A DNA stretch of 64,000 bases from Nibricoccus aquaticus (GTDB taxonomy: Bacteria > Verrucomicrobiota > Verrucomicrobiia > Opitutales > Opitutaceae), in contig NZ_CP023344.1 in assembly GCF_002310495.1 (NCBI RefSeq), forward strand, positions 1,116,001 to 1,180,000, read 5' to 3'. This document shows positions 7,083 to 50,461 of the stretch, in pieces. A model generated the notes under the pieces. It worked only from the letters and a program-made list of their open reading frames with translations, ran no database searches and was not told the origin of the DNA. Each line of letters starts with the position of its first letter. Within the stretch, counting starts at the first letter, position 1. Made by a program: the position numbers and the translations under genes.

Positions 7083-9200
7083 ATGAAAAACGCCTGCCCA
7101 CTCCTCACCCGTTTCCGCCTTCACCTGTCTGCACTTCCTTTGGTTTTGGCGGCGTTTTCTTCGTCCGCCACGATCAGCCACGCCGCCGAAAAATCCCTCA
7201 TCGACACCACCAAGTCGCCGCACGCCGCGATGTACATGACCGACCTCGCAGACGTCCGCTGGACCACCGGTCTCTGGGCCGAGCGCTTCGAAGCCTGCCG
7301 CACCACGATGATCCCGCACATGTGGTCCATCTTCAAAGACGACTACGAGAGCCACGCCTGGTCCAACTTCCTCGTCGCCGCCGGCATGGGCGCAGGCCGC
7401 GACGGCAAAAAACAATTCCACGGCCCGCCCTTCAACGACGGTGATTTCCTCAAGTGGGTCGAAGCCCTCGTCCAGGTTTACGCCGTCACCAAAGACCCCG
7501 CCATCGACAAGCAGCTCGACGAAATCATCACCGTCGTCGCCAAGGCCCAACGTGAGGACGGCTACCTCCACACGCAAAAAATCATCCCGCAGCGCCAGGG
7601 TCTCACCGGCGCCACCGCCAAGGAGTTCGAAGATCGCGAACACTTCGAGACCTACAACATGGGTCACCTCATCACGACCGCGTGCATCCACTACCGCGTC
7701 ACCGGCAAAACCAACTTCCTCGACTGCGCCCGCAAAGCCGCCGACTACATCGACAACCTCTGCAAGACCGTCCCGAAGGACCTCGCGAAAAACGCCATCT
7801 GCCCGTCGCACTACATGGCCGTGATCGAGCTCTACCGCGTCACGCGCGAACCGCGTTACCTCGAGCTCGGCAAGCAACTCATCGAGATCCGCAGTCTCTT
7901 CAGCGGCAAGGAAGGCTCCGACCAAAACCAAGACCGCACCGCCTTCCGCGAAACCTTCGAAGCCGTCGGCCACGCCGTCCGCGCCAACTATCTCTACGCC
8001 GGTGTCGCCGACGTCGTCGCCGAAGACGGCGACAAAACCCTCTTCAAGCCCCTCGAAAAAATCTCCGAGGACATCGCCACCCAGAAGCTCTACATCACCG
8101 GCATGACCGGCGCCATCTACGATGCCGCCTCGCCCGACGGCGCGCACCACACACTCCATCCGCAGATCAAAACCATCCACCAGGCCTACGGTCGCGACTA
8201 CCAGCTCCCGAACATCACTGCCTACAACGAAACCTGCGCCACCATCGGCTACGGCATGTGGATCTGGCGCATGCTCACCCTCACCGGCGACGCCCAGTAC
8301 GCCGACCTCTTCGAACAAACCCTCTACAACGGCATCCTCCCCGGCATCAGCCTCGAAGGAAAACACTACTTCTACGTCAACCCGCTCCGCACCGACTCTG
8401 AGTACAAATGGCCGCTCCGCTGGTCCCGCACCCGCCAGCCCAACTACAAAGCATCCTTCTGCTGCCCGCCCAACATCGTCCGCACCATCGCCGAGGCCCA
8501 CAACTACGCCTACACGCTCTCCGAAAATTCCCTCTGGGTTCAGCTCTACGCCGCCAACACCCTCGACACCAAGTGGACCGACGGCGCCCGCATCAAACTC
8601 CGCCAAGAAACTGATTATCCGTACGACGGCGCAGTGAAGATCACCATCGACGAAGCGCCCGCGAAAGACATCGCCCTCAAGCTCCGCATCCCCGGCTGGC
8701 TCCACAAGGAAGCCGCCACCCTCAAGGTAAACGGCACGCCCGTCTCCGCCACGCTCAAGCCCGGCTCCTTCGCCGAAGTGAAGCGCACGTGGAAAGCCGG
8801 CGACGTCGTCACCCTCGACCTCGCGTTCAAGCCCGTCCTCCTCGAAGCCAATCCGCTCGTCGAAGAAACCGTGAACCAGGTCACCGTGAAGTACGGCCCG
8901 CTCGTTTACTGCCTCGAAGCCGCCGACCTCCCCAAAGGCGTCCGCCTCGCCGACGTCGTCCTCAGCCTCGATCCCAAGCACCGCCAGTTCACCCCGAAGG
9001 CCGAGAAGATCGTCAACGCCAACCTCACCACATTTACCGTGCCCGCGTTCCAACTACAGCGCGACGAGTGGAAGCCCGACCAACTCTACCGCGAAGTCGG
9101 CGCCGCCACCCTCAAGGCCATCGACGTCAAATTCGTCCCCTACTTCGCCTGGGACAACCGCGGCACCGGCGACATGAGCGTCTGGGTCCCCGTCCGCTAA
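7083..9200 (+). CDS. GH127 beta-L-arabinofuranosidase
   Basis: A 705-residue secreted glycoside hydrolase of the DUF1680/GH127 type, which removes beta-L-arabinofuranose from plant glycans by a zinc-assisted cysteine mechanism. The diagnostic residues are intact: E383-T-C385 in YNETCA and the adjacent pair C460-C461 in FCCPPN, matching the zinc ligands and nucleophile of characterised members. A signal peptide covers about residues 1-35 (ends near SHAAEK). The (alpha/alpha)6 barrel spans about 50-480 and beta-sandwich domains follow. It is first in a rightward series GH127-MFS-GH78. RG-II carries terminal beta-L-arabinofuranose, a plausible target. Related families (GH146) share these motifs. 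Confidence 0.9.
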   Translation: MKNACPLLTRFRLHLSALPLVLAAFSSSATISHAAEKSLIDTTKSPHAAMYMTDLADVRWTTGLWAERFEACRTTMIPHMWSIFKDDYESHAWSNFLVAAGMGAGRDGKKQFHGPPFNDGDFLKWVEALVQVYAVTKDPAIDKQLDEIITVVAKAQREDGYLHTQKIIPQRQGLTGATAKEFEDREHFETYNMGHLITTACIHYRVTGKTNFLDCARKAADYIDNLCKTVPKDLAKNAICPSHYMAVIELYRVTREPRYLELGKQLIEIRSLFSGKEGSDQNQDRTAFRETFEAVGHAVRANYLYAGVADVVAEDGDKTLFKPLEKISEDIATQKLYITGMTGAIYDAASPDGAHHTLHPQIKTIHQAYGRDYQLPNITAYNETCATIGYGMWIWRMLTLTGDAQYADLFEQTLYNGILPGISLEGKHYFYVNPLRTDSEYKWPLRWSRTRQPNYKASFCCPPNIVRTIAEAHNYAYTLSENSLWVQLYAANTLDTKWTDGARIKLRQETDYPYDGAVKITIDEAPAKDIALKLRIPGWLHKEAATLKVNGTPVSATLKPGSFAEVKRTWKAGDVVTLDLAFKPVLLEANPLVEETVNQVTVKYGPLVYCLEAADLPKGVRLADVVLSLDPKHRQFTPKAEKIVNANLTTFTVPAFQLQRDEWKPDQLYREVGAATLKAIDVKFVPYFAWDNRGTGDMSVWVPVR

Positions 9201-9424: not shown

Positions 9425-10732
9425 ATGGCCACCAACCCACCCCTCGCCGCTGACAGCGGCTCCGCTATCACACGCCAGCAATGGAAATGGTCTGCCCTCG
9501 CCGGCATGGCCTCCTACCTCGACGCCGGCTCCATCGTCGCCCTCGGCGTCGGTCTCGCGCTCTTCCAGAGCGAATTTGCTCTGAGCAACGGCGCCGTCGG
9601 CACGCTCGCCGCCATCGGGCCCAACGCCCTCGGCTGCGCGCTCGGCGCATTTCTCGGCGGCTGGTTGGGCGACAAGCTCGGCCGCAAATTCATCTACCAG
9701 TATGACCTCATGGTCTACGCGGTCGGCATCCTCTTCATCACCTTCGCGGTGAACGCCGAGATGCTCTTCATCGGCACTTTCATCGTCGGTGTCGCCGTCG
9801 GTGCGGACGTCCCCACTTCACTCGCCCTCGTCGGTGAGTTCGCCCCCGACAAAGCACGTGGCAAACTCCTGGGCTTTACACAGATCGCCTGGTGTCTCGG
9901 CCCGGTCATCGTGCTCCTCATGGGTGCCGCGCTCGCGCCTTATGGACTGCTCGGCATCCGTATCATCTTTTTCCATCTCTTCCTCGTCGCCTTCGTCACG
10001 TGGGCCATGCGCCGCGGCCTGACCGAGTCACCTCGCTGGAAAGAAGCGAAAAAAGCCTACGACATCGCTCCGTCCAAGCGGAACAACCTGGCGCTCCTCT
10101 TCTCTGGTTCGAACCTCAAGGCCCTCATCTGGACCACGACGATCTATCTCTTCTGGAATCTCGCCGCTGGCACCGCCGGCGCCTTCAACTCCTATCTCAT
10201 CAAGATGAACGCGGGCGGCTCGCAAGCCGAGGCCACCATCATGCCGTGCGTCGCCTTCATCACTGCGATGCTCTTCACGGTCTTCGTCTTCATGAAGTTC
10301 TCCGACCGCAGCTTTGCCGCCCGTAAAACCATGTGGGGCATCGGTGCCGTCGTGCAGATCATCGCCTACGCGCTCTTCATGGTGCTGCCGTTCTCGATCC
10401 CCGTCGTCTTCATCAACATCCTCATGTTCTCCGCCGGTGGCGCGCTGGCCGGTGAAGCTTTCTACAAAGTTTTCAGCCAGGAACTTTTCCCGACCATGAT
10501 TCGCGGCACCGCCCAAGGCTTCTCCTTCGGCGCCGCTCGTGTCGCCGTCGGTATCTGGAGCTTCTTCGTCCCGATGGTCGCCGAAATGAGCCTGCCGCTG
10601 CTCGGTGGGATTCTCGCCGGCTCCCTCTTCATCAGCGGCGCAGTCGGCTTCTTCTTCATGCCCGACACCTCTGGCAAATCCCTCGAACAAATCGAAAACG
10701 AGCGCACCAAGGCGCCGTTCCCCGCCCGCTAA
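9425..10732 (+). CDS. MFS sugar transporter
   Basis: A 435-residue inner-membrane permease with about 12 hydrophobic segments. The major-facilitator signature GGWLGDKLGRKFIYQYD lies after segment 2 (about residues 78-96), and a sugar-porter-like motif with charged end (GEFAPDKARGKLLG, about 138-152) after segment 4. ESPRWKEAKK closes the first half, as in sugar porters (ESPRW). It probably imports a mono- or disaccharide released by the neighbouring GH127 and GH78 enzymes by proton or sodium symport. Which sugar cannot be told. A strong hairpin terminator follows. Confidence 0.88.
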   Translation: MATNPPLAADSGSAITRQQWKWSALAGMASYLDAGSIVALGVGLALFQSEFALSNGAVGTLAAIGPNALGCALGAFLGGWLGDKLGRKFIYQYDLMVYAVGILFITFAVNAEMLFIGTFIVGVAVGADVPTSLALVGEFAPDKARGKLLGFTQIAWCLGPVIVLLMGAALAPYGLLGIRIIFFHLFLVAFVTWAMRRGLTESPRWKEAKKAYDIAPSKRNNLALLFSGSNLKALIWTTTIYLFWNLAAGTAGAFNSYLIKMNAGGSQAEATIMPCVAFITAMLFTVFVFMKFSDRSFAARKTMWGIGAVVQIIAYALFMVLPFSIPVVFINILMFSAGGALAGEAFYKVFSQELFPTMIRGTAQGFSFGAARVAVGIWSFFVPMVAEMSLPLLGGILAGSLFISGAVGFFFMPDTSGKSLEQIENERTKAPFPAR

Positions 10733-10943: not shown

Positions 10944-13787
10944 ATGCCCTCCGCCTCCGTCTCCTCCACTCCCGCCTTCGCCATCGCCAATCTCCGCTGC
11001 GACTACCTCGTCAATCCCCTCGGCATCGACGAAAGCTCCCCGCGCCTGAGCTGGACGCTTGAGTCGGAAGCCCGCGGCGCCCGCCAGCTCGCCTACCGTA
11101 TCCGCGTATCGAGCACCGCCCAAAAACTCGCCGCCAACAACACCGACCTCTGGGACTCCGGCCGCATCGAAAGCGACCAGACCACGCACATCACCTACGC
11201 GGGCAAACCTCTCACCTCCCGCGCCACCGCCTTCTGGACCGTCGAAGTCTGGCCCACATCCGACTCCGCTTCCGTCTCTCAACCCTCAACTCTCAACTCT
11301 CAACTTTCCGCAGTCGCCCACTTCTCCCTCGGCCTCCTCTACCCCGCCGACTGGTCCGCCCGCTGGATCACGCACGACGTCGAAATCATCAAACGCGACT
11401 CCGCCGCCACCGAAGGCACACTGCTCGAACCGGGCACACCCGCCCTCTTCCGTCGCGAGATCGATCTCCCTGCGCCCATCGCCCGCGCCACACTCTACGC
11501 CACCGCCCGCGGCATCTTCGAATTCCGTGCCAACGGCCAGCGCATCAGCCAAGACCTCTTCGCCCCCGAGTGGACCGACTACGACAAACGCATCCACTAC
11601 CGCACCTACGACGTCACCGCGCTCCTCTCGCAAGGCCGCAACGCCCTCGCCGCCACGCTCGGCGACGGTTGGTGGACCGGCTACGTCGGCTGGCAGGAAA
11701 CCCGCGCCCGCTACGGCAGCCTCGAAAATTCCCTCCTCGCTCAGCTCGAAGTCGAACTCACCGACGGCCGCCGCCTCACCTTCGGCACCGACTCCTCGTG
11801 GACGTGCAACACCGGTCCCATCCTCACTTCCGACTGGATGATGGGCGAAACCTACGACGCCCGCCGCGAACCTCACGGCTGGGATCGACCAAATTTTTCC
11901 CCGAGCTCCCTCACGATTCCTCCTTTCGCTTCCACCGCCGCTCTCGGTCTTCCTTGGCTACCCGCCCGCGAAACTGCCGCGCCGGCTGTCCCCCTCGTCG
12001 CCCAGCGCTCCGAACCCGTCCGCATCACCGAGCTCCTGAAGCCCGTCTCGCTTACCGAGATCAAACCCGGCGTCTTCATCTACGACCTCGCCCAAAACAT
12101 TTCCGGCTGGGCCCGCCTTAAACTCCCGAAGCTCCCCGCCGGCACCAAGATCATCATCCGCCAAGGCGAGCGCCTCAGCCCTGACGGCACGCTCTACGTC
12201 GAAAACCTCCGCCGCGCCAAAGCCACCGATACCTACGTCGCTCGTGGCGACTCCTCCAGCGAAACCTACGAGCCACACTTCACCTTTCACGGTTTCCAAT
12301 TCGTCGAACTAACCGGCTTCCCCGCCGGCGTGAAGCCCGACATCACCACCGTCACCGGTTGCATGATACAGTCCGCCACGCCGCCCACCGGACACTTCGA
12401 GTGCTCCAACGCCGACGTGAACCGCCTCTGGCTCAACGGACTCTGGTCCCAGAAGGACAACTTCCTCTCCGTCCCCACCGACTGCCCGCAGCGCGATGAA
12501 CGCCTTGGCTGGATGGGCGACGCCCAGGTCTTCCTCCGCACCGCGTCCTACAACATGGACGTCGCCGCCTTCTTCACGAAGTGGATGATCGACGTCGAGG
12601 ACGCGCAGACGCCTGAGGGTATTTTCCCCGACGTCGCCCCGCGCCTCCGCGAAGGCGAAAACTTCATCGGCCTCGGCAATCTCGGTGGCGCCGCCGCTTG
12701 GGCCGACGCCGGCATCATCATCCCGCACACCCTCTGGCGCGTCTACGGCGACCGCCGCGTCATCGAGAAACACTACGGCGCGATGGTGAAATGGGTCGAC
12801 TGGATCGCCTCGCACAACCCTACCGGCCTCCGCCTCAACCAACTCGCCAACAACTACGGCGACTGGCTCTGCATCCCGAGCGACACCTCTTTCGGCACGC
12901 ACTCGCCGATGAAGAACCTCCTCGCCACCGCCTACTGGGCAGACGACTGCACCAAACTCGCCGAAATTGCCCGCGAACTCGGCCACACTGCCGACGCCGC
13001 CCGCTTCACCGCGATGTTCGAGAAAGTCCGCGCCGCCTTCCAGAAGGAGTGGGTTCGCGAAAACGGCCAAATCATCGTTGAAACTCAGACCGCTTACTTG
13101 ATCGCGCTCGCGTTCGATCTCTTGAAGCCCGAGGACCGCGGTCACGCTGCCGATCGTCTCGTCGACAATATCGCCGCGCTCGACTGGCACCTCAGCACCG
13201 GCTTCGTCGGCATCAGCCACCTCAACCCGCAGCTCACGCTCAACGGCCGCGCCGACGTCGCCTACAAACTCCTCCTCCGCGACGACTATCCCTCCTGGCT
13301 CTATCCCGTGAAACACGGCGCCACCACGATCTGGGAACGCTGGAACGGCTGGACGCATAAAGACGGGTTCTTCAACCCGCACATGAATTCATTTAACCAC
13401 TACTCGCTCGGCTCCGTCGGCGAATGGCTCTTCCGCCACGTCGCCGGCATCGAACTCGATCCCGCCAAACCCGGTTTCCAACATTTCATCCTGCGCCCCT
13501 TCATTCCCGCCGAAGGCACCCTCTCTCACGCCCGAGCCACCTACCGCACCATGCACGGCGAAATCGAAAGCGCCTGGAAGCGCTCCGGCAGCGACTTCAC
13601 CTGGACCATCCGCATCCCCGCCAACTGCACCGCCCGCGTATATGTTCCTTCAAAGACCGGCATGCCGATCTTTGAAAATCACCTCTCTCTCGATCGCGTC
13701 GCCGGTCTGCAAAACTTTGATCGGGTCGGTGATTACGCCACGTTCACCGCCCCCTCCGGCCGCTACACCTTCACCAGCACACTCTGA
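10944..13787 (+). CDS. GH78 alpha-L-rhamnosidase
   Basis: A 947-residue inverting alpha-L-rhamnosidase with the usual order: N-terminal beta-sandwiches (about 10-340), an (alpha/alpha)6 barrel (about 460-810) and a C-terminal sandwich. The acidic catalytic block DCPQRDERLGWMGD starts at D513, and the second signature, MNSFNHYSLGSVGEW, starts at M814. No signal peptide is visible at the N-terminus, so it may act in the cytoplasm on imported oligosaccharides, or a leader may be missing. The N-terminal domain contains an in-frame copy of a CTCAACTCTCAA repeat (encoding SVSQPSTLNSQLS, about residues 111-123) that looks inserted in a loop. It lies downstream of GH127 and the MFS transporter. Confidence 0.92.
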   Translation: MPSASVSSTPAFAIANLRCDYLVNPLGIDESSPRLSWTLESEARGARQLAYRIRVSSTAQKLAANNTDLWDSGRIESDQTTHITYAGKPLTSRATAFWTVEVWPTSDSASVSQPSTLNSQLSAVAHFSLGLLYPADWSARWITHDVEIIKRDSAATEGTLLEPGTPALFRREIDLPAPIARATLYATARGIFEFRANGQRISQDLFAPEWTDYDKRIHYRTYDVTALLSQGRNALAATLGDGWWTGYVGWQETRARYGSLENSLLAQLEVELTDGRRLTFGTDSSWTCNTGPILTSDWMMGETYDARREPHGWDRPNFSPSSLTIPPFASTAALGLPWLPARETAAPAVPLVAQRSEPVRITELLKPVSLTEIKPGVFIYDLAQNISGWARLKLPKLPAGTKIIIRQGERLSPDGTLYVENLRRAKATDTYVARGDSSSETYEPHFTFHGFQFVELTGFPAGVKPDITTVTGCMIQSATPPTGHFECSNADVNRLWLNGLWSQKDNFLSVPTDCPQRDERLGWMGDAQVFLRTASYNMDVAAFFTKWMIDVEDAQTPEGIFPDVAPRLREGENFIGLGNLGGAAAWADAGIIIPHTLWRVYGDRRVIEKHYGAMVKWVDWIASHNPTGLRLNQLANNYGDWLCIPSDTSFGTHSPMKNLLATAYWADDCTKLAEIARELGHTADAARFTAMFEKVRAAFQKEWVRENGQIIVETQTAYLIALAFDLLKPEDRGHAADRLVDNIAALDWHLSTGFVGISHLNPQLTLNGRADVAYKLLLRDDYPSWLYPVKHGATTIWERWNGWTHKDGFFNPHMNSFNHYSLGSVGEWLFRHVAGIELDPAKPGFQHFILRPFIPAEGTLSHARATYRTMHGEIESAWKRSGSDFTWTIRIPANCTARVYVPSKTGMPIFENHLSLDRVAGLQNFDRVGDYATFTAPSGRYTFTSTL
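11275..11305. repeat. CTCAACTCTCAA tandem repeat inside GH78
   Basis: A 7-base periodic tract (CTCTCAA units after TTCCGTCTCTCAA) sits in frame in the GH78 coding sequence. Nearly the same tract is found at 14655-14693 inside the GH43 gene. It encodes Ser/Gln/Leu/Asn-rich residues not typical of the family. Confidence 0.75.
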
Positions 13788-16943: not shown

Positions 16944-16957
16944 AAAAACACCTTCGC

Positions 16958-21462: not shown

Positions 21463-21464
21463 CA

Positions 21465-28701: not shown

Positions 28702-29964
28702 ATGAGCTCCAGTTCCCCTCGCCTCACCGCCCGCTACTTCATCGAAACGCCCAACGACCTCGCCAAGGCCGCCGCCACGCTCGCCGGCGAACAATCCTCC
28801 GGCACCTTCGTCGAAGTCCCCGGTGAAACCGCCGAACTCAAACAACGCTTCGCCGCCCGCGTAGAATCCATCAAGCCCCTCGACACGTCGCCCACCCCCG
28901 CCATTCCCACCGGCCGCCCAACTCCGCCGAACGCCGTTTACCGCCGCGCCGAAGTCGCCGTCTCCTGGTCCCTCGAAAATTTCGGCCACAACCTCCCGAC
29001 CCTCGTATCCACAGTTCAAGGCAACCTCTACGAACTCGCCCAATTCTCCGGCCTTAAACTGATCGACCTCGATTTCCCCGCTGAATTCTCCGCCCGCTTC
29101 CGCGGTCCGCAATTCGGCATCCCCGGCTGCCGCCGGCTCACCAACGTCCCCGCCGGACGCCCGCTCATCGGCACCATCATCAAACCGAGCATCGGTATGT
29201 CTCCCGACACGACCGCCGAACTCGTCCGCACGCTCGTCGAAGCCGGCATCGACTTCATCAAAGACGACGAGCTCATGGCCAACCCGCCGCACTCGCCCTT
29301 CGACGCCCGCGTCGACGCCATCATGCGCGTCATCAACGCCCACGCCGACCGCACCGGCAAGAAGGTCATGTACGCCTTCAACGTCTCCGACGAAATCGAC
29401 GCCATGCAGCGCCACTACGAGAAGATCGTCCGCAGCGGCGGCACCTGCGCCATGATCAGCCTCAACAGCGTCGGCCTCTCCGCCTCCAAAAAAATCTGCG
29501 ACCTCGGCCAGCTCGCCATCCACGGCCACCGCAACGGCTGGGGCATGCTCAACCGCCACCCGCTCCTCGGCATCGAGTACCCCGCCTACCAAAAACTCTG
29601 GCGCCTCGCCGGCGTCGACCAGCTCCACGTCAACGGCATCGCGAACAAATTCTGGGAATCCGACGACTCCGTCGTCCGCTCCATCCAATCCTGCCTCGCC
29701 GCCGAACCCCTCAACAAACCCCTCCTCCCCGTCGTCTCCTCCGGCCAATGGGGCGGTCAGGCGCCTGAGACCTGGCGCCGCACCCAAACTACCGACCTCC
29801 TCTACATGGCCGGCGGCGGCATCATGGCACACCCGAACGGACCAGCCGCCGGCGTCCACGCCCTCCGCGAATGGTGGGAAGCCGCCGTATCCGGATTAAC
29901 CTACGACCAGTGCCTCGCCCAACGCCCCAACCTCGCCCTCTCCGCCCAAAAATTCGCTAAGTAA
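28702..29964 (+). CDS. RuBisCO-like protein (form IV)
   Basis: A 420-residue protein with the RuBisCO large-chain fold: N-terminal domain about 1-145 and TIM barrel about 150-410. It keeps K161 (TIIKPSIG), the carbamylated-lysine block K187-D-D-E190 (GIDFIKDDE), H274-x-H-R (IHGHRNGWG) and K316 in loop 6, so metal-dependent enolisation or decarboxylation is likely. The second lysine of the true RuBisCO KPK motif is serine. It is followed by a DUF1537 acid-sugar kinase. RuBisCO-like proteins next to DUF1537 kinases act on 3-oxo-isoapionate 4-phosphate in D-apiose catabolism (OiaX, decarboxylase; OiaT, transcarboxylase/hydrolase). Which of these reactions applies is not evident. Confidence 0.92.
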   Translation: MSSSSPRLTARYFIETPNDLAKAAATLAGEQSSGTFVEVPGETAELKQRFAARVESIKPLDTSPTPAIPTGRPTPPNAVYRRAEVAVSWSLENFGHNLPTLVSTVQGNLYELAQFSGLKLIDLDFPAEFSARFRGPQFGIPGCRRLTNVPAGRPLIGTIIKPSIGMSPDTTAELVRTLVEAGIDFIKDDELMANPPHSPFDARVDAIMRVINAHADRTGKKVMYAFNVSDEIDAMQRHYEKIVRSGGTCAMISLNSVGLSASKKICDLGQLAIHGHRNGWGMLNRHPLLGIEYPAYQKLWRLAGVDQLHVNGIANKFWESDDSVVRSIQSCLAAEPLNKPLLPVVSSGQWGGQAPETWRRTQTTDLLYMAGGGIMAHPNGPAAGVHALREWWEAAVSGLTYDQCLAQRPNLALSAQKFAK

Positions 29965-30282
29965 TCGTAGGGCCGGACCTCTGGTCAGCGCCTCCGTACT
30001 CCACAATCTTTCTCTTACTCATTTTCGTTCTCCCGCCTTCGCTTCCTTCGCCCGCTTCGCGAGACAACCTCTTCCGTCCCCCAACTACCAATTACCAACT
30101 ACAAACTACCGCAGCCCGCCGCTCCGAAATCCTGTAATCCTGTCCAAAATTTCCTTCCGGAATCCCTTCCGTATCCTGCCCCCATCTGTGGTTAAAAAAT
30201 CCGCCATTCCGAAATTAGCGTCCCTTAGCGTTCATTAGCGGTTCAAAAATTCCGTCCCTTCCGTCCTCCGTGTCCGCACTCC
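29965..30282. repeat. Intergenic region filled by phrase repeats
   Basis: This 318-base gap holds a degraded hairpin repeat (29967-29998), CAACTACCAATTACCAACTA (about 30081-30100), ATCCTGTAATCCTGTCCAAA (about 30131-30150), CCATCTGTGGTTAAAAAATCCG (about 30184-30205), TTAGCGTCCCTTAGCGTTCA...GCGGTTCAAAAATTCCG (about 30216-30253) and CTCCGTGTCCGCACTCCGTG (about 30266-30285). The last runs into the next gene and supplies its likely start codon. Confidence 0.8.
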
Positions 30283-31677
30283 GTGCCCTCTGTGTCCCCC
30301 TCCGATAAAAATAACCCCCGTCCGCCTTCGACGTCGTCCGAACTTCTCCTCGCCTACTACGGCGACGACTTCACCGGCTCGACCGACGCCCTTGAATTCC
30401 TCTCCCGCGCCGGCGCGCGCACCCGCCTCTTCCTCGACCCACCGACACCCGCGCAACTCGCCCGCCACCCCAGCCTTCAAGCCATCGGCGTCGCCGGCCT
30501 CACCCGCTCCCTCGCCCCCGCCGACATGGAGCGCACCCTCCGCCCCGCCTTCACCGCCCTCCGCGCCCTCGGGTCTCCACACGTCCACTACAAGGTCTGC
30601 TCCACCTTCGACTCCTCCCCGACCACCGGCAGCATCGGCCGCGCGATCGACGTCGGCTCCGAAATTTTCCAACGCCCCTTCGTCCCCCTTCTCATCGGCG
30701 CACCCGCCCTCGGCCGCCACTGCGTCTTCGGCACGCTATTCGCTCGCATGGGCATCGGCTCCACCGGCGAAATCCACCGCCTCGACCGCCACCCCTCCGC
30801 CAGCAAACACCCGATTACCCCCATGCACGAGGCCGACCTCCGCCTCCACCTCGCGCAACAAACCAAAAAGAAAACCGGCCTCTTCAACATCCTCCAGCTC
30901 GAGCTCCCCGACCACGAAGCCCACGCCGCCCTCGCCAAACTCATCGCCGACAAAAACGACATCGTCCTCTTCGACCTCCTCTACGCTTCCCAACTTCCCC
31001 GCATCGGCTCCCTCCTCGACGAACACGCCAGCCGCCTCGACCCGCTCTTCACCGTCGGCTCCTCCGGCGTCGAGATGGCCCTCGGCGCACACTGGGACGC
31101 TAAAAAACGCCTCAGCCACATCGCCTCCTGGCCACACCCCGGCGCCGTCGAACCGCTCCTCGTCGTCTGCGGTAGTTGTTCTCCCGTGACCGCCCGCCAG
31201 CTCGCTTGGGCCCGCGAAAACAAGTTCACCGAGATCCGCCTCGATACCCACGCCGCCACCTCGCTCCACCACAGCTCCGCCCTCGCCGCCACCATCGAAG
31301 CCGCCGTCCAATCCCTCGCTCGCGGCCACCACACCGTCGTCCACACCGGCGGCACCGCCCAAGTCGATCCGCACATCGCTGCCCTCGGCGCCCGCTCCGC
31401 TGAAATCCTCGGCACCGCCCTCGGCAACGTCGTCCGCGGCACCCTCGAACGCCTCCGCCTCAAACGCGTCCTCTTCGCCGGCGGAGACAGTTCGAGCTAC
31501 GCCGCCCGCGCCGTCGGCATCGAAGCCGTCGAAATGATCGCCCCTCTGGCTCCCGGCGCCCCCCTCTGCCGCGCTTACGCCCCGAACAGCCCCGCCGACA
31601 ACCTCGAAGTAAATTTCAAAGGCGGCCAAGTCGGCGCCGACGACTACTTCGCCGCCGTCGCCTCCGGCCACCTCTGA
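30283..31677 (+). CDS. DUF1537 four-carbon acid-sugar kinase family protein
   Basis: A 464-residue cytoplasmic kinase with the family start LLAYYGDDFTGSTDALEFL (about residues 22-40) and the C-terminal nucleotide-binding block with VHTGGTA (about 346-352) and FAGGDSSSYAARAVG. DUF1537 kinases phosphorylate four-carbon acids (threonate, erythronate) and branched 3-oxo acids such as 3-oxo-isoapionate (OiaK). The RuBisCO-like gene upstream favours the last. The start is uncertain: GTG at 30283 and GTG at 30292 both lie inside a CTCCGTGCCCTCTGTGTCC phrase repeat, and the family core begins only about 20 codons later. Confidence 0.9.
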   Translation: MPSVSPSDKNNPRPPSTSSELLLAYYGDDFTGSTDALEFLSRAGARTRLFLDPPTPAQLARHPSLQAIGVAGLTRSLAPADMERTLRPAFTALRALGSPHVHYKVCSTFDSSPTTGSIGRAIDVGSEIFQRPFVPLLIGAPALGRHCVFGTLFARMGIGSTGEIHRLDRHPSASKHPITPMHEADLRLHLAQQTKKKTGLFNILQLELPDHEAHAALAKLIADKNDIVLFDLLYASQLPRIGSLLDEHASRLDPLFTVGSSGVEMALGAHWDAKKRLSHIASWPHPGAVEPLLVVCGSCSPVTARQLAWARENKFTEIRLDTHAATSLHHSSALAATIEAAVQSLARGHHTVVHTGGTAQVDPHIAALGARSAEILGTALGNVVRGTLERLRLKRVLFAGGDSSSYAARAVGIEAVEMIAPLAPGAPLCRAYAPNSPADNLEVNFKGGQVGADDYFAAVASGHL

Positions 31678-32058: not shown

Positions 32059-32715
32059 ATGCCCACCCTCGCCCTCATCCACACCTCCGCCACCCTCGTC
32101 CCCGTCTTTCAGCAGCTCTGCAAAACGCACCTGCCCTCCGTAAAAACCTTCAACATCGTCGACGACTCCCTCGTCTCCGGCATCCGCGCCAAAGGCTCGC
32201 TCACGGCCGACATCGCCCGCCGCGTCCAGGCCTACGTCTCCTCCGCCGAAGCCGGCGGCGCTGATCACATCCTCGTCACCTGCTCCTCCATCGGACCCGC
32301 CGTCGAAGCCTCCGCCAAATTCTCCGCCGTCCCCGTCCTCCGCGTCGATCAGCCCATGGCTGATCAAGCGGTCAAAACCGGCAAACGTATCGGCGTCATC
32401 GCAACACTCTCCACCACCCTCGAGCCGACCTCCGACCTCGTCCAACGACGCGCCGCCGCCGCCGGCAAGCAAATCGAGCTCAGCTCCGTGCTCGTCGAAG
32501 GCGCCTTCGAAGCCCTCATGGCCGGCGACTCCGCCACGCACGACACCAAAGTCGCCGCCGCCCTCCGCGAACTCTCCTCCAAGGTCGACGTCATCCTCCT
32601 CGCCCAAGCCTCCATGGCTCGCGTCGTCGACACGCTCCCATCCGCAGACAAACGCATCCCCATCCTCGCCAGCCCCCCCATCGCGATCCAACACCTCGCC
32701 TCGCTGCTTTCATAA
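32059..32715 (+). CDS. Asp/Glu racemase-superfamily protein
   Basis: A 218-residue protein of the aspartate/glutamate/hydantoin racemase superfamily. One cysteine is in the expected place, C75 in ILVTCSSIG. The second catalytic cysteine of true racemases is not found; the corresponding strand reads ILLAQASMARV. Single-cysteine or atypical members include isomerases and decarboxylases of small dicarboxylic acids. It ends the rightward metabolic series, after the DUF1537 kinase, so a sugar-acid or keto-acid isomerase role is possible. ATG 32059 is preferred to an upstream frame because the latter would translate repeat sequence. Confidence 0.8.
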   Translation: MPTLALIHTSATLVPVFQQLCKTHLPSVKTFNIVDDSLVSGIRAKGSLTADIARRVQAYVSSAEAGGADHILVTCSSIGPAVEASAKFSAVPVLRVDQPMADQAVKTGKRIGVIATLSTTLEPTSDLVQRRAAAAGKQIELSSVLVEGAFEALMAGDSATHDTKVAAALRELSSKVDVILLAQASMARVVDTLPSADKRIPILASPPIAIQHLASLLS

Positions 32716-32833
32716 ATCTCGGCGCGCCGTCCGACGCGTCCCGTCAATGCGGGACATGCTCGTTGCTCGTTCTCCCCTGTCCGCGTGGCTTCGTAGTCGA
32801 AGCCTTCGACAACTGTCCGCTTTCAACCACCCC

Positions 32834-35477: not shown

Positions 35478-36767
35478 ATGCCCCTCCGCAAACTCGCCCT
35501 CTTCGCCGTCGCCCCCGCCCTCCTCGCCCTGCTCATCGGCCTCGTATCCGGTAACCCAGCACTCTGGCAGCCCGCCGCCGTCGCTGCCGCCGTCCTCCTC
35601 GCCCTCGGCCTCGGCTCTTCGCCCTCCCTCAAATCCTACCAGTACACCGCCTGGATCATCGCCGCTGTCGTCGCCGCCATGATCTACCCCGCGCAGCTAC
35701 TCCACTGGGGCGACTTCGACCTCCGCAACAAATGGCTCACGCTGATCGCCGTGCAGATGGTCATGTTCGGCATGGGCACCCAGATGAGCCTCAAGGATTT
35801 CGCCGGCGTCGCCAAAATGCCCTACGGCGTCCTCATCGCCGTCGCCAGCCAGTTCATCGTCATGCCCCTCGTCGGCTTCGCACTGACAAAAATTTTCACC
35901 CTCCCCGACGAAGTCGCCGCCGGCGTCATCCTCATCGGCGCCTGCTCCAGCGGGCTCGCCTCGAATGTCATGTGCTACATCGCCAAGGCCAACCTCGCCC
36001 TCTCCATCACCGCCACCGCCGTCACCACGCTCATCGCCCCGTTCATGACCCCCATGTGGATGAACCTCCTCGCCGGCCGCCTCGTCGAAGTCGATTTCAC
36101 CAAGATGATGATGGAGATCGTCAAGATCGTCATCGTCCCCATCGGCGCCGCCCTCCTCGGCGATCACCTCCGCAACGCACCGCCCGCCACCCGCCGCGCC
36201 TGGCTCATCTCTGCCATCCTCTCCGCCGTCCTCTGCGTCTGGCTCTTCTCCTCCGCCTCATCCCTCGCCCGGCCCGATCTCGCCAAAACTGTCCACCTCT
36301 CCCTCGAGTCCCTCGCCTTCATCGCCGCAGCCATCGTCGTCGGCGTCCTCTACGCCGCCCTCGTCCGCGCCTTTCCCTCGCTCCCCGGCCGCATGCCCCT
36401 CTTCTCCATGGCCGGTATCGTCTATTTCACGACGATCACCACCGCCGCCGGCCGCGACAACCTTCTCCTCGTCGGTGGCCTGCTCTTTGTCGTCGCCGTC
36501 CTTCACAACACCTTCGGCTACGTCCTCGGCTACTCCCTCGCTTGGCTCGCCCGCCTCGACCGAGCCTCCCGCCGCACCGTCGCCATCGAGGTCGGCCTGC
36601 AAAACGGCGGCATGGCTTCAGGACTCGCCGCCTCGATGGGCAAGCTCGCCACCGTCGGCCTCGCCGCCGCCGTCTTCAGCCCCTGGATGAACATCTCCGG
36701 CTCCCTCCTCGCCAACTTCTGGCGCCGCCGCCCCGTGTCGCCCGACGCAAAATCCCCGGGCGTCTAG
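35478..36767 (+). CDS. SBF (bile acid:sodium symporter)-family transporter
   Basis: A 429-residue inner-membrane protein with about ten hydrophobic segments. The family signatures are MFGMGTQMSLKDFA (about residues 96-109), GVILIGACSSGLASNVMCYIAKANLALS (about 150-177) and the late EVGLQNGGMASGLA (about 375-388). Bacterial members import organic acids such as pantoate, keto acids or bile acids with sodium. No partner gene indicates the substrate. It is separated by 119 bases from the paralogue pair and is followed by a hairpin. Confidence 0.9.
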   Translation: MPLRKLALFAVAPALLALLIGLVSGNPALWQPAAVAAAVLLALGLGSSPSLKSYQYTAWIIAAVVAAMIYPAQLLHWGDFDLRNKWLTLIAVQMVMFGMGTQMSLKDFAGVAKMPYGVLIAVASQFIVMPLVGFALTKIFTLPDEVAAGVILIGACSSGLASNVMCYIAKANLALSITATAVTTLIAPFMTPMWMNLLAGRLVEVDFTKMMMEIVKIVIVPIGAALLGDHLRNAPPATRRAWLISAILSAVLCVWLFSSASSLARPDLAKTVHLSLESLAFIAAAIVVGVLYAALVRAFPSLPGRMPLFSMAGIVYFTTITTAAGRDNLLLVGGLLFVVAVLHNTFGYVLGYSLAWLARLDRASRRTVAIEVGLQNGGMASGLAASMGKLATVGLAAAVFSPWMNISGSLLANFWRRRPVSPDAKSPGV

Positions 36768-45720: not shown

Positions 45721-48700
45721 TCATTCCTCCCTCATCAGCCGCACCGGCCCGAGCAAGCCCGCCTTCAGCAGCGGCCGCCCCTTCATGCCGATTTTTGCCG
45801 TCGTCCACGTGACGCGCTCCGCCTCCGGCAACTCCGCGTCGCCGATCAACCGGTTCGCCCACGTATTCGTGACTCCGACACGCAGCTCGTTGTCACCGTC
45901 CTTGAGCGCCCGCGTGACCTCCACGTGATAAGGCGGCGTCCAAGCCACGCCGCAATTCACGCCATTCACATAAACCTCCGCGAGATTCGCCACCTCGCCA
46001 AGATCGAGCCACACGCGCCGCCCGCGACTCGACGCCGCGTTAAACGAAAACACGCGCTTGTACTGCGCCGTCCCCGAAAAATGCCGCACCGCCGCATCGC
46101 TGTGCTTGCTCCAGTCGAAAAGCGCCTCCGCATAAACCGGCGCACCCGGCGCCGCCGGACGTTTCTCAAACGCCACGGTCCAGCTGCCAGTCAGCTCCTG
46201 CATCGCGCGCAAAAACGGCTGATTCGCTCTCTCGCTCTTGAGCATCGCAGTCGTCTTCTCACGAAACACCACAAACACCGACTCCGCCGCCGCCAACTCC
46301 AGTGGCAGCACCGTGCGTCCTTTCTCCCGCCACCAGCTGCGCGCCTCAATGATCTCTCCCGTCACCGTATTCCAAATCTCCGGCACGCTCCCATCCACGC
46401 GAAGCGAAAACTCCAGCGACCGCGTCCGCTCCAATTGATTCGAAACGAAATAAACCTCCACGTCCTCCACGCGCCGATGCGTCCAAGCCACCTTGTCCGC
46501 CTCCTCGCCTTTCTCCATCGCCACAAAATCCCGCGCGATCTTCAGCGAGTCGAGGGTCTCCTCCGTCCACGGCGCATCGATGATCTTCGCACCGAGCTTC
46601 TTCAACTCGCCCACCCGCTTGGCCACTTCCGCCGACAACGGCACCCCGCTCGGATTCATCGGATTCGCGCCCGGTAAAACCAGCACGCCATAACTCGCTC
46701 CGCCAGGCAGCACGATCCGTCCATCCCGCACCGTCGCCAGCCGCAACAGCGCATCACGATTGATCGAGTCGTAAGCATAACCGCGCAACGGATCGGTCCA
46801 GTCCGCCGGATTTGTCGTGTTCGCCGAACTCGAAACCCCCTCCGCCACCGTCTTCATCGGCTGACCGACATTTGCCAGCCGCACCGCCTCACGCTTCACC
46901 GCATCCTCGCCCATCAACCCTGGCAGAACTGTCGTCAACCGCTCCGGCAACACCGCCCGCCGCGGCATTTCCTCGCCCGTAAACACCGCGACATCCACCA
47001 CCGGCACTCCTTGCTGAAGCACCGCCTGCACGCGATGCGCATAAGCGAACCACGCCGCGCCGGGACGCCACCACGTCTGATCGCGCTGAAAGAAAGTACC
47101 CACACCACCCAGCGTCATCCCTGGCTTCCGATCAGGCCACGGATTGTGCATGAAAACATGATACGCGAAGTGATTCACCCCGAGCGCATAGTTCCGGTCC
47201 CCAAGTGCCTTCAACATCCCCGGATGCTCGTCCCACGTCAGCTTCAGCTCGGTGAACGCCTCCGCCCCGATGATCTTCTTCCCATAAACACGCGCCGCCG
47301 AAATCGTATCCCGCATGTCGTTCGGCTTGTCGTGCGTCGGACTCCGCAGCCAGAACTCGCCCATCGGCAAATCCACCTGCTCGAAGTGCCGCATGTTATC
47401 GCTCGTGACCACCGGCGACACACTCTCCGCCGTGAACCGCTTCCCATTCACGCGCGCCAGCTCCGCATAAACGCCGACAAAATTATCCACGATCAACTCC
47501 CCGATCGTCGTCCGCACATCGTGCAAAAACGTCTCCGATGCCTCCGCGCTCTCCACCGGAATCCCCGCCATCGCCGGTAGCCACGGCCGCGGATCGTACC
47601 CACGCCGCCGCTCAAACTCCTTCTGAAAAACCGGCGACCAGTTCTGCGACCCGCACTCCCAGCTATCCAAGTGAAAACCCGCCAGCACGCGCTTGCTCAG
47701 CTCCGGCCCCGCCCGTCGCATCGCCTCGCCAAACCACTGATCGAAATTCAACCGCGCCGCCGCCGGATTAAACTTATCCGCCTCCAGCCCTTTGCCTGCG
47801 CCCGCCGTCTCGTTGTGCTGCCCCGTCGATGTATGGCCGACTCGCAGGATCGTCCACGCTCCCGCCGGCATATCCCAGTTCAATTTCCCATCCGCGCCCA
47901 GCTTCGACGTGAGATCGACCATCGTCCCCTTGGCCACCGCCAGCTTCTCCGGCAAAATATCCGACGTCGTACGCTTCCCGATACGCCAGAGCGCTCCGGA
48001 CTTTCCCTCAAACTGCTCGATGCGCGCCTCGCTCGAAAGCTCCAACCGCGTCACTTTCAAAATCGGTCGCCACTTCGCCGCATCCATATCCTCCGAGCCC
48101 GGCTCCGAACCTGCCGGATCCCACACAAACCGAAAATACCGCGCCGTCGTCTCCGGCAGCGCGAAGGTCGCCTCCCACGCATTGTGCTGCCACCCCTGAC
48201 GCGCCGGCTCGAGCTGCGCTACAAAAAGAAAATCCTTCCCGTCCTCGCTAGCCTCCACGCGCAACCGCAGCCCCTGCATGTTCGTCCCATCCGGCTGCAC
48301 CACGAGCGACCGCGCCGTGAACGACTCCGCAAACGCATACTGAATCCACCCCGCATCCTCCGCCCGATAACGCGCCTTCTCTTTTCCCATCGGCAGCATC
48401 GACGCATCAGCTCCCTCACTCGTCGTCACTACCGGCACCACCGTCCGCGTCGACACGCCCGCGCCCGCCTGCGTCGGAAACGCCAGCACCGCGATGTCGC
48501 GATAATAATTTTCCTTCGTCGGCGGCTGCGGCAGCACGCCCGAAAAAACTTTCCCCGTTTTCCCGCCGCTCACCCGCGTCTCGCTCCACACCACGCGCTG
48601 CATCGAAAGCTCCGGCGTGATCCACGGCCCGCCCGACGTCGCGAATCCATCGCACGCATGCATCGCGATCTTCAGCCCCAGCCGGTCCGCCTCCTTAAAC

Positions 48701-49020
48701 GCATGCATCACCATGCCCCACCATTCCTCTGTGAGCTGTCGCACCGGCGTAATCGGCCACGCGGGAGTCGGCATATCCTGGATCGCCATGAAATACGCCC
48801 CGCCGATTCCCGCCTGCTTCATCGCTTCAAGATCCGCCGTGATCCCTTCGCGCGAAACCGACGCCTGCATCCAATACCAAATCACCCACGGCTTCGCCGA
48901 CTCCGGCGGATTCTGAAAATCGCGCACGAGCGCATACGGTGTTCCCTCCGCCCGCATCGCCGAAACACCAGCGACCAGGATCAAAACGAAAACAGGCAGC
49001 AGACGGGAAAAACGGATCAT
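45721..49020 (-). CDS. GH106 alpha-L-rhamnosidase
   Basis: A 1099-residue secreted enzyme. The signal peptide is at about residues 1-26 (MIRFSRLLPVFVLILVAG). The family start F-x-x-PP-x-x-x-x-P-W-x-x-W-Y-W-M is seen as FQNPPESAKPWVIWYWM, followed by ITADLEAMKQAGIGGAYFM of the catalytic barrel. A sandwich domain with VYVNGVNCG ends the protein (about 1020-1090). GH106 enzymes remove alpha-L-rhamnose, including from rhamnogalacturonan II. It is third in the leftward Gfo/Idh-GPH-GH106-GH20/67 cluster. ATG 49020 is selected since upstream residues are Arg-rich and unrelated. Confidence 0.9.
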   Translation of the reverse strand: MIRFSRLLPVFVLILVAGVSAMRAEGTPYALVRDFQNPPESAKPWVIWYWMQASVSREGITADLEAMKQAGIGGAYFMAIQDMPTPAWPITPVRQLTEEWWGMVMHAFKEADRLGLKIAMHACDGFATSGGPWITPELSMQRVVWSETRVSGGKTGKVFSGVLPQPPTKENYYRDIAVLAFPTQAGAGVSTRTVVPVVTTSEGADASMLPMGKEKARYRAEDAGWIQYAFAESFTARSLVVQPDGTNMQGLRLRVEASEDGKDFLFVAQLEPARQGWQHNAWEATFALPETTARYFRFVWDPAGSEPGSEDMDAAKWRPILKVTRLELSSEARIEQFEGKSGALWRIGKRTTSDILPEKLAVAKGTMVDLTSKLGADGKLNWDMPAGAWTILRVGHTSTGQHNETAGAGKGLEADKFNPAAARLNFDQWFGEAMRRAGPELSKRVLAGFHLDSWECGSQNWSPVFQKEFERRRGYDPRPWLPAMAGIPVESAEASETFLHDVRTTIGELIVDNFVGVYAELARVNGKRFTAESVSPVVTSDNMRHFEQVDLPMGEFWLRSPTHDKPNDMRDTISAARVYGKKIIGAEAFTELKLTWDEHPGMLKALGDRNYALGVNHFAYHVFMHNPWPDRKPGMTLGGVGTFFQRDQTWWRPGAAWFAYAHRVQAVLQQGVPVVDVAVFTGEEMPRRAVLPERLTTVLPGLMGEDAVKREAVRLANVGQPMKTVAEGVSSSANTTNPADWTDPLRGYAYDSINRDALLRLATVRDGRIVLPGGASYGVLVLPGANPMNPSGVPLSAEVAKRVGELKKLGAKIIDAPWTEETLDSLKIARDFVAMEKGEEADKVAWTHRRVEDVEVYFVSNQLERTRSLEFSLRVDGSVPEIWNTVTGEIIEARSWWREKGRTVLPLELAAAESVFVVFREKTTAMLKSERANQPFLRAMQELTGSWTVAFEKRPAAPGAPVYAEALFDWSKHSDAAVRHFSGTAQYKRVFSFNAASSRGRRVWLDLGEVANLAEVYVNGVNCGVAWTPPYHVEVTRALKDGDNELRVGVTNTWANRLIGDAELPEAERVTWTTAKIGMKGRPLLKAGLLGPVRLMREE

Positions 49021-49099
49021 GGCGGAGGAGTTGAAAAGTGAATGAAGGAAAATCGCCCCGCCAGCCGACACGCCGCCAGACGCAAAACGCGCCGGGAAG

Positions 49100-50461
49100 T
49101 TACGTCCTCTGCGCGGCCCGACGACGCTCAAGATCCGCGCGGATCTGCGGCTCAAGCTTCTCGAAACGTCCGTAGAAAAGCACCGGTACGATCGCCAGTC
49201 CGAAGCACGCCGCCGGAATCCACACAATGCCGGCATTGATCGCCGACACGACCGCTGCCGTCGGCTCCGTCTTCGCGACATAACCCGCCGCATCGAGAAT
49301 CCACATTGGCAGCGCCGTGCCCAACCCCGCTCCGGCCTTCAAACAAAACGCCGCACCGATCGCCGTAAGCAGACCCGCCGCGCGAATCCCAGTCTTCCAT
49401 TCGCCGAAATCGACGCTGTCCGAAAGCACCACGAACGGCATCGCCATCGCCACGCCGCTCGCGAGAAACCCGATCGTCCAGCCAGTCAGGATAATTTCCA
49501 CCGACAGCCCATTCTTCACGCCGAGATAAACAATCAGCTGCCCGATCGTCATCCCCAGCAAACCGAGCGCCCACACAGTTCCCTTCGATGCCTTGCGACA
49601 AAACCACGGGAGCAAAACCGCCGTCGCCAGCGACGCAAAATCGAGACTGTTCGCTAGCTTGATCAGATCCTTCCGATGCAGCACGTACTCGAAAAAATGA
49701 GGCGCCACCGAGACACGCGAGATGAAGCCGATCCAGAACAGAAAGCTGCTGATAAAAATAATCACCCACGGCCAGTTTCCCCGCAGCGCGCCAAACGTGC
49801 CCAGAATCGGCTGCGGTTTCGTCTCCACCGCGACCGTCTCCTTCAGATTCCGAAACGCGATGAGAAACAGGATTATCGAGGCTACCGCAAACATCGGCAT
49901 CGCCAGCAAAAATCCTTTGCGATCATCGCCCCCACCTAGCCACACCGCGAACTCGATGCCCGTGAGATTCACGATGAGCACCCCCAGCTTGGAGCCGAAC
50001 ATCCGGAAGGTCGTCAGCGTCACGCGCTCCTTCGAATCCGTCGTGAGCGCCGATAGGATCGACGTCACCGGCGTGTTAATACCGGTATAGATCACGTTGA
50101 AAATGATGTACGTGATCGCCGCGTAGAAGAGCTTGGCCGTCGCTCCCAGATCCGGCGTCAGAAATGTCAGAGTCCCAAAGATCGCGAACGGCCCGCACAG
50201 CCACAGAAACCACGGACGGCTCTTCCCAAAACGACTCCGCGTCTTGTCGAAGATGATTCCCCAGATCGGCGCATCCAGCGCATCCACCCAGCGGGCGATC
50301 AATGCAATCCACGCCACCGCCGCCGCGGAAATTCCATACACGTCCGTGTAGAAGTATGGCAGGTATCCCATGATCCAGCCGAACAACAACTGCCCGCCGA
50401 TATCCGGCAGAGCATAACTAAAACGCGTGGTAAGAGAGGTCTTGCCGGTTGGGGTACTCAC
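49100..50461 (-). CDS. GPH-family sugar:cation symporter
   Basis: A 453-residue inner-membrane transporter of the glycoside-pentoside-hexuronide family (MelB/XynB-like, MFS). Family signs are RWVDALDAPIWGIIFDKTRSRFGKSRPWFLW (about residues 57-87) and DSVDFGEWKTGIRAAGLL (about 345-362), with about 12 hydrophobic segments. It starts with GTG. The gene lies 42 bases after the Gfo/Idh stop and 79 bases before GH106, so all are probably co-transcribed. It likely imports the sugar released by GH106 and its partner, rhamnose or a rhamnosyl oligosaccharide being the best guess. Confidence 0.9.
   Translation of the reverse strand: MSTPTGKTSLTTRFSYALPDIGGQLLFGWIMGYLPYFYTDVYGISAAAVAWIALIARWVDALDAPIWGIIFDKTRSRFGKSRPWFLWLCGPFAIFGTLTFLTPDLGATAKLFYAAITYIIFNVIYTGINTPVTSILSALTTDSKERVTLTTFRMFGSKLGVLIVNLTGIEFAVWLGGGDDRKGFLLAMPMFAVASIILFLIAFRNLKETVAVETKPQPILGTFGALRGNWPWVIIFISSFLFWIGFISRVSVAPHFFEYVLHRKDLIKLANSLDFASLATAVLLPWFCRKASKGTVWALGLLGMTIGQLIVYLGVKNGLSVEIILTGWTIGFLASGVAMAMPFVVLSDSVDFGEWKTGIRAAGLLTAIGAAFCLKAGAGLGTALPMWILDAAGYVAKTEPTAAVVSAINAGIVWIPAACFGLAIVPVLFYGRFEKLEPQIRADLERRRAAQRT

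Follow-up and report, generated by a model that had tools for sequence, protein, structure and literature searches.

Which substrate does a bacterium consume when it sets a gene for a RuBisCO-like protein (RLP) beside one for a DUF1537 kinase? The question is raised by a stretch of 64,000 nucleotides from Nibricoccus aquaticus (NZ_CP023344.1), hereafter the window, which is part of a 4.73-Mb single-contig genome (G000, C1:1116001-1180000). A sequence-only reading of the window had singled out the two genes and proposed an apionate-type acid-sugar pathway or, as a hedge, a route for another branched acid. We found that they belong to a four-gene cassette, which also encodes a protein of the Asp/Glu racemase fold and a transporter of the bile acid:sodium symporter (SBF) family. 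This set, placed beside pectin-digesting genes, probably lets bacteria eat L-aceric acid, so that the evidence favours the hedge over the pathway first proposed. L-aceric acid (3-C-carboxy-5-deoxy-L-xylose) is a branched sugar acid, one of the unusual sugars of rhamnogalacturonan II (RG-II), a polysaccharide that every plant has in its cell walls.

The RLP and the kinase are real genes by Pfam. The RLP matches RuBisCO_large (PF00016, 198.6 bits) and RuBisCO_large_N (PF02788, 34.6 bits), both above the cut-off, and the kinase matches the two halves of the DUF1537 pair (SBD_N, 176.9 bits; NBD_C, 107.7 bits). Their open reading frames, at 28702-29964 and 30283-31677, stand in the order that the sequence-only reading had described. 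Among NCBIfam models, the best for the RLP is OiaX (NF042437, 488.4 bits) and the best for the kinase is OiaK (NF042436, 438.7 bits). Both scores are below the equivalog cut-off of 700 bits, which an annotated Paracoccus OiaX passes with 761.4 bits on NF042437. The earlier pairing with OiaX and OiaK is thus right as to the nearest families. In an alignment with form I RuBisCO, for which we assumed the usual active-site numbering, K161, K187-D188-D189-E190, H276-R277, H309, K316, S346 and G371-G373 fall on active-site positions, which includes the metal site and the loop-6 lysine already recognized from the letters. These two features are invariant in 15 members of the clade. H309, presumably H327 of RuBisCO, is kept as in RuBisCO, whereas the four OiaX-clade rows all have Gln (4/4).

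The constancy of the set was assessed by tblastn in 80 loci of named genomes, the best 80 by RLP similarity (63-79% identity; more exist). The kinase is encoded in 76 of the 80 loci, and the RLP-kinase pairing is therefore not due to chance. The racemase-fold protein is found in 75 and the SBF transporter in 72. Hence, the interval 28702-31677 that was initially delimited covers the pair but is too narrow, since 32059-32715 and 35478-36767 are part of the unit as well. Four of the loci lacking some of the genes (L068, L073, L102 and L121) all end at most 0.8 kb from the RLP, and three Planctomycetota loci (L099, L119 and L120) lack the SBF transporter. A Rufibacter plasmid has the same gene order, followed by a pectinesterase gene. 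Searches of 18 plasmid loci with RLPs of other clades (flanks of 3-12 kb), and of four loci in the window's family with the ApnO-type RLP, found neither the racemase-fold nor the SBF gene; most of these loci have an ApnO-type gene or, in its place, an SDR or VOC gene. Inside the cassette, the racemase and SBF genes are separated by genes for two neighbouring proteins of about 430 residues each (32747-34057 and 34069-35358). These proteins have no Pfam match at E 1e-5 and no relatives in the 80 loci.

The RLPs of such loci form a clade of their own. In the window's family, 31 of 252 genomes encode a relative of 68-80% identity, in two cases as a fragment, and among named genomes the clade includes Bacteroidota, Verrucomicrobiota, Planctomycetota and Balneolota. 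We built an RLP tree of 56 rows, with two RuBisCO rows on long branches as outgroup, in which a branch with support 100/95 sets 33 racemase-type RLPs apart. For one of these rows, from G544, the label was given on the basis of the sequence, and the racemase gene was checked later. The placement relative to OiaX, a check that the sequence-only reading had proposed, makes the clade sister to the four OiaX-clade rows (support 100/99), outside the OiaX clade itself. A quick tree of the kinases separates the same group (own clade of 26 rows, SH-aLRT 99). Two taxon names in this material are doubtful: L116, labelled Williamsia, groups with Chitinophagaceae in the RLP tree, and its metagenome-assembled genome is probably misnamed or misbinned, as is probably the contig L044, labelled Akkermansia muciniphila, a name that does not fit.

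The racemase-fold protein belongs to PF01177 (69.7 bits). Its open reading frame opens at a GTG codon at 31993, and the ATG at 32059 agrees with its relatives. The AlphaFold model (pLDDT 96.1) superposes on the aspartate racemase 1jfl with Z 21.1 and a root-mean-square deviation of 2.5 over 208 aligned residues. Arylmalonate decarboxylase was also listed by Foldseek and was set aside as nearest fold, its matches being weaker (TMq 0.48 and 0.61). In an alignment with the glutamate racemase 1b73, C97 falls on the first catalytic cysteine, and Q205 of an AQASM motif, one column beyond the end of the printed alignment, lies on the second; both residues are present in all 70 family rows. A further cysteine, at position 168 in 64 of the 70 rows, is missing from the window's protein. 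With one catalytic cysteine kept and the second replaced by Gln, a classical two-cysteine racemase is unlikely, and a role as one-base isomerase or decarboxylase is possible.

The link to RG-II comes from a glycoside hydrolase of family GH127, the commonest further neighbour of the cassette (38 of 88 loci by clustering of open reading frames, with the family given by Pfam). In all three members tested, the nearest PDB entry was 5mqo, for instance with 676 bits against 425, and 868 against 398, for the runner-up; the window's own GH127 (7083-9200) scores 684 bits on 5mqo and 345 bits on the next entry. We take 5mqo to be BT1003. Aceric acid is borne by chain B of RG-II. Excerpts of PMC10850190 and PMC5698469 describe BT1003 as the L-aceric acid hydrolase of RG-II. 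Two entries of the same structure series are BT_0986 (5mqm), a rhamnosidase for an RG-II chain B oligosaccharide according to an excerpt of PMC6828813, and BT_1020 (5mqr; excerpt of PMC7263609). The GH106 of the window resembles BT_0986, with 1178 bits against 476 for the next structure, and adds to the case for L-aceric acid. In 21 of the 37 loci measured, which are those of the 38 where the RLP was called as an open reading frame, the GH127 gene lies on the same strand at most 150 bp upstream of the RLP gene.

The same association is seen across whole genomes. We counted as BT1003-like the GH127 proteins with at least 60% identity to that of the window, including fragments (G448, G480 and G512). 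In the window's family, they occur in 29 of 31 genomes with the RLP and in 16 of 221 without it (p=2.8e-24, a value that, like the following ones, ignores kinship among genomes), and adding the 38-46% matches of G546, G438 and G336 gives p=4.9e-23. Other GH127 proteins are far less associated (16/31 vs 61/221, p=0.011). Among the 28 GH127-RLP pairs that could be located, 22 are on one contig, all within 20 kb, and the remaining six are on different contigs of fragmented genomes. In a second family, that of a Pedobacter genome, BT1003-like GH127 proteins are present in all 35 RLP genomes vs 48 of 216 others (p=3.9e-20), while other GH127 proteins are found in 6/35 vs 17/216 (p=0.11). There, the two genes are within 20 kb in 11 of the 35 genomes and 38-80 kb apart in eight. 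A BT_1020-like protein (PF24067) also accompanies the RLP in the window's family (28/31 vs 22/221). Yet, among genomes with this protein, the RLP is found in 28 of the 35 that have a BT1003-like GH127 and in none of the 15 that do not.

From these observations we infer that the four-gene cassette (SBF transporter, racemase-fold protein, DUF1537 kinase and RLP) probably, though by no means surely, catabolises the L-aceric acid of RG-II. The sugar would be released by the BT1003-like GH127 and taken up by the SBF transporter. The racemase-fold protein would then turn the aldose into the 2-ketose HOOC-C(OH)(CHOH-CH3)-CO-CH2OH which, by structural reasoning, is 3-oxo-isoapionate plus one methyl group, a 1-hydroxyethyl replacing the hydroxymethyl. 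The kinase may phosphorylate the CH2OH adjoining the ketone, and the RLP may attack the resulting beta-keto acid through its lysine-carbamate metal site. Excerpts of PMC6302742 describe RLPs that decarboxylate 3-oxo-isoapionate 4-phosphate, or transcarboxylate and hydrolyse it. An OiaX-like decarboxylase would here give a 5-deoxypentulose 1-phosphate, which an aldolase could split into dihydroxyacetone phosphate and acetaldehyde. A transcarboxylase/hydrolase would yield 3-phosphoglycerate and lactate. Import, isomerisation, phosphorylation and the RLP step match the four genes of the set, and a route of this kind would do without a dehydrogenase, lactonase or oxidoisomerase, none of which is a constant partner. 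The putative isomerase role of the racemase-fold protein was assigned by elimination. The complete scheme, with the racemase fold as a new aldose-ketose isomerase and the RLP cleaving a branched carboxylated sugar phosphate, is put forward tentatively, at somewhat less than even chances.

DISCRIMINATING D-apiose from aceric acid required a comparison, since both sugars occur in RG-II (D-apiose according to an excerpt of PMC12282258). Under a D-apionate/3-oxo-isoapionate route, the RLP would be OiaX and the kinase OiaK, with the oxidation steps located elsewhere or incomplete. The best NCBIfam matches and the sister position of the clade suit this reading, as does the presence of apiosidase-family genes in 33 of 40 genomes compared (weakly in G000, 84 bits), but both proteins miss the equivalog cut-offs. 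The presumed oxidoisomerase is missing. We used as query a Shinella protein that we take to be ApnO, from its gene context (no NCBIfam model matched it at E 1e-20), and found no ApnO-type gene at E 1e-8 in the whole of G000, in 23 of the 29 same-family RLP genomes searched (G000 counted, G480 and G512 left out) or in any of nine genomes reached through loci of other groups; the six control records, one being the query's own, all matched. One Shinella query for the lactonase, presumably ApnL although it reaches 313 of the 750 bits that the ApnL model requires, had no match in the genome, in a search that had no positive control and where relatives are 29-40% alike. The earlier remark that the window has no D-apionate oxidoisomerase and no clear lactonase thus extends, for these queries, to the genome. 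Where ApnO-type genes do occur in the same family, they come with another RLP: in G544, G548, G390 and G560, an RLP of 51-55% identity lies beside an ApnO-type gene and a kinase gene, joined in three of these genomes by ApnL-like and Gfo/Idh genes. G544 has both systems, with an apiosidase, an ApnO-type gene, an ApnL-like gene and a second RLP (51% identity) at C11:874-888 kb, and GH127, GH78, RLP, kinase, racemase and SBF genes in a row at C12:806-818 kb. The apiosidase (PF13204) is within 20 kb of the RLP in one of the 40 genomes (G574) and absent from seven at E 1e-20. The BT1003-like GH127 is that close in 29 of the same genomes, a figure inflated by their choice: they are 40 of 46 (G605-G609 and G611 had no RLP position), in each of the 18 from the window's family the GH127 and RLP genes share a contig, and the 22 taken from the 35 of the second family comprise every one of the 11 in which the two genes are less than 20 kb apart. 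The apiosidase figure is unselected, and for all located GH127-RLP pairs the counts are 22/28 in the window's family and 11/35 in the second. Finally, an isomerase, a split transketolase and an FGGY kinase are encoded at the left edge of the window, the genes for the isomerase and the N subunit of the transketolase lying shortly before it (G000 1113343 and 1114979). Such a set is reportedly the D-apiose/apulose-4-phosphate transketolase route of Carter et al. 2018, and D-apiose would therefore be left to these other genes. With the ApnO-type gene missing, the ApnO-type modules using another RLP and a racemase-fold protein and an SBF transporter as constant partners, we reject the apionate-type pathway for this RLP and give it little chance.

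The cassette could also degrade another sugar acid of RG-II or pectin, such as a Dha or Kdo product, or D-apiose by a route of its own, and the GH127 link would then reflect RG-II clusters in general. The loci are indeed rich in RG-II-type genes (GH141, BT_1020-like, GH106, GH78 and GH2), and the BT_1020-like protein co-occurs with the RLP too. We nevertheless favour L-aceric acid over other RG-II sugars because the GH127 gene directly adjoins that of the RLP, because none of the 15 genomes with BT_1020-like protein alone has the RLP and because the apiosidase is remote or absent in 39 of 40 genomes. In addition, the aceric ketose would be an exact chemical analogue of 3-oxo-isoapionate, unlike Dha or Kdo. 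Another RG-II sugar is accordingly unlikely, though less so than apionate. A different matter is the reaction of the RLP if L-aceric acid is the substrate. The sister position to the OiaX decarboxylases, in a tree without a verified OiaT sequence, favours decarboxylation. The lack of a constant aldolase among the annotated recurring neighbours favours an OiaT-like hydrolysis to 3-phosphoglycerate and lactate, and the RuBisCO-like H309, a Gln in the OiaX clade, also fits a transcarboxylase/hydrolase, a chemistry that excerpts of PMC6302742 describe for 3-oxo-isoapionate 4-phosphate. This alternative has a substantial chance, of about one in three. A methionine-salvage-type enolase or isomerase is, in turn, extremely improbable. 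It belongs to the same superfamily, but the MtnW models give 120.4 bits (TIGR03332, cut-off 513.6) and 161.9 bits (NF007095, cut-off 409), scores on which this identity was rejected, and the partners and context are carbohydrate genes. The clade next to OiaX and these low scores also leave no sign of the grouping with methylthioribulose-type enolases, or with a clade unrelated to acid sugars, that the sequence-only reading had held to speak against an acid-sugar role.

Several observations weigh against L-aceric acid as the substrate or against the scheme built on it. Locus L089 has no kinase, racemase-fold or SBF gene within 10 kb and L097 has no kinase gene, which breaks the pattern. By tblastn, GH127 is found in only 40 of the 80 RLP flanks. 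The depositors of 5mqo call it a beta-L-arabinofuranosidase, and no paper among the matches listed names this entry. In the window's family, 16 of the 45 genomes with the BT1003-like GH127 lack the RLP, and in its presence without the BT_1020-like protein the RLP occurs in one genome of ten, so that GH127 alone is not sufficient. In the second family, the GH127 gene is near the RLP in just 11 of 35 genomes, being on another contig in 12 and more than 400 kb away in four. Presence alongside RG-II genes is also what another sugar of this polysaccharide would predict, and six of the 29 RLP genomes do carry an ApnO-type gene. The Asp/Glu racemase superfamily is not known to include an aldose-ketose isomerase. 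Lastly, no aldolase stands out among the recurring neighbour families that were annotated, which are part of all, and this counts in particular against the decarboxylase variant.

Loci of other RLP clades show further arrangements. In Azospirillum and Paracoccus alcaliphilus, a VOC-family protein is encoded directly upstream of the RLP and kinase (L131:7459-7998 and L133:7461-8000), without an ApnO-type neighbour, and a further substrate is therefore likely for this clade. In L036, L037, L039, L130 and L147, the RLP and kinase come with an SDR dehydrogenase and varied transporters, again without an ApnO-type gene. These SDR-type loci, on plasmids of Azospirillum, Rhizobium, Chimaeribacter, Agrobacterium and Bradyrhizobium, possibly represent a third substrate class. 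A Rhizobium leguminosarum plasmid (L145, 3001-6555) matches an RLP/kinase/ApnO-like cluster in pieces, without annotated genes, and this cluster may have decayed.

Together with its flanks, the window resembles a single RG-II region some 100 kb long. It comprises GH2, GH141, the isomerase and split transketolase, the FGGY kinase, a TonB receptor, the BT1003-like GH127, an MFS transporter, GH78, GH43, the RLP cassette and GH106, as well as a BT_1020-like protein (262 bits) and, at 84 bits, a weak match to the apiosidase family. The GH2 beside the cassette was considered as a relative of BT0993 and discarded, its nearest solved structures being ordinary beta-galactosidases. The features are listed below.

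Table. Features of the window, with positions counted from its first nucleotide.
Feature	Position	Strand	Basis and remarks
Transketolase C-terminal subunit	24..1022	+	Likely separate D-apiose/apulose route
FGGY kinase	1312..2844	+	Beside split transketolase; same likely route
GH127	7083..9200	+	Nearest structure 5mqo; N-terminus resembles a signal peptide by eye
MFS transporter	9425..10732	+	Relatives beside the cassette in 6 loci
GH78 alpha-L-rhamnosidase	10944..13787	+	Relatives beside the cassette in 11 loci
Second module, MaoC-like dehydratase	16509-16949	-	
Second module, Gfo/Idh	18120-19205	+	10/80 loci by tblastn; 11/88 loci
Second module, other parts	21393-22625, 22862-24004, 24245-25324, 25379-26581	+	Two solute-binding-type proteins, CaiB CoA-transferase, RhaT
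RLP, 420 aa	28702..29964	+	Open reading frame, Pfam, NCBIfam, tree, alignment; putative decarboxylase, or else transcarboxylase/hydrolase, acting on the phosphate of a branched 3-oxo sugar acid
DUF1537 (four-carbon acid sugar) kinase, 464 aa	30283..31677	+	Open reading frame, Pfam, NCBIfam, tree; own OiaK-like clade
Asp/Glu-racemase-fold protein	32059..32715	+	Pfam, alignment, model; candidate aldose-ketose isomerase
SBF family transporter	35478..36767	+	Pfam, plasmid gene order, tblastn linkage; proposed importer
GH106	45721..49293	-	Closest to PDB 5mqm = BT_0986; 1178 bits vs 476 for next

Between the GH78 gene and the cassette lies a second module, most parts of which have homologues of 44-65% identity beside the RLP cassette in the Bacteroidota loci L062, L070 and L112; in G421, of the same family as the window, most of the module occupies the same position. 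The two solute-binding-type proteins of the window's module have no obvious signal peptide. Amid genes for sugar use, the CoA-transferases and the MaoC protein perhaps serve another RG-II sugar. The Bacteroidota version of the module has an amidohydrolase (L062:6785-7639 and L112:1911-2849), close to L-fucono-1,5-lactonase in L062 (141 bits, cut-off 400) and judged by its N-terminus in L112. An SDR (26825) and a FAH hydrolase (27688), encoded immediately upstream of the RLP, were considered as cassette partners and rejected, since tblastn found no relatives in the 80 named loci, the SDR matches at 31-38% in six loci being at the superfamily level. Upstream of the RLP, G421 encodes the SDR (82% identity), the FAH (80%), CaiB, RhaT, one solute-binding protein and Gfo/Idh. 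With both genes in G421 and in 0/80 loci, the SDR and FAH are local neighbours outside the constant cassette. With 222 bits against a cut-off of 500, 2,4-didehydro-3-deoxy-L-rhamnonate hydrolase is the nearest match of the FAH, a hint at a rhamnose-type route. The epimerase (19370) and the MetE-like protein (20392) were likewise dismissed as partners, each with 0/80 loci. Of the helper genes that the sequence-only reading had envisaged, the epimerase thus drops out, and Gfo/Idh keeps the minority linkage given in the table. The MetE-like protein (20392-21378), with the catalytic domain of the methionine synthase type, scores 183 bits (cut-off 406); among sugar genes, the O-methyl sugars of RG-II come to mind. 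Between genes, a repeated piece near TCCGTGGTTAAAAA occurs at 18043, 19278, 28658, 31862 and 43502 (+), i.e., five matches with at most two mismatches against 0 expected.

If the proposed assignment is true, the RuBisCO superfamily gains a new natural substrate and the Asp/Glu racemase fold a new chemistry, and the fate of L-aceric acid becomes directly testable with four proteins. It would also provide a better name for a clade of at least 80 named loci, now annotated as 'ribulose-bisphosphate carboxylase large subunit family protein' (e.g., on the Rufibacter plasmid). More generally, the RLP and DUF1537 kinase would be a platform for branched sugar acids, in which the third enzyme (ApnO, SDR, VOC or racemase) sets the substrate.

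The known systems frame this proposal. Like the OiaX/OiaK pair, the cassette has an RLP beside a DUF1537 kinase, with a RuBisCO-type metal site and lysines, and the RLPs are sister clades. It differs from that pair by scoring below both cut-offs, by having H309 where OiaX has Gln, by the lack of an ApnO-type gene in its genome and by its racemase-fold and SBF partners. The ApnO-type RLP modules (Shinella L041; G544, G548 and G390) share the RLP and kinase and presumably act on a branched 3-oxo sugar acid, but their RLP clade and third enzyme are different, and both types coexist in G544. The racemase-fold protein has the fold of the Asp/Glu racemase superfamily (1jfl and 2eq5; arylmalonate decarboxylase), whose two catalytic cysteines are reduced here to one, with Gln at the second position. 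We found no catabolic route for freed L-aceric acid in the open-access literature that we searched. As for the RG-II genes of Bacteroides thetaiotaomicron (BT1003, BT_0986 and BT_1020), their GH127, GH106 and BT_1020-like relatives lie in or near the region described here, which adds to them a downstream catabolic cassette, one that was not searched for in B. thetaiotaomicron itself.

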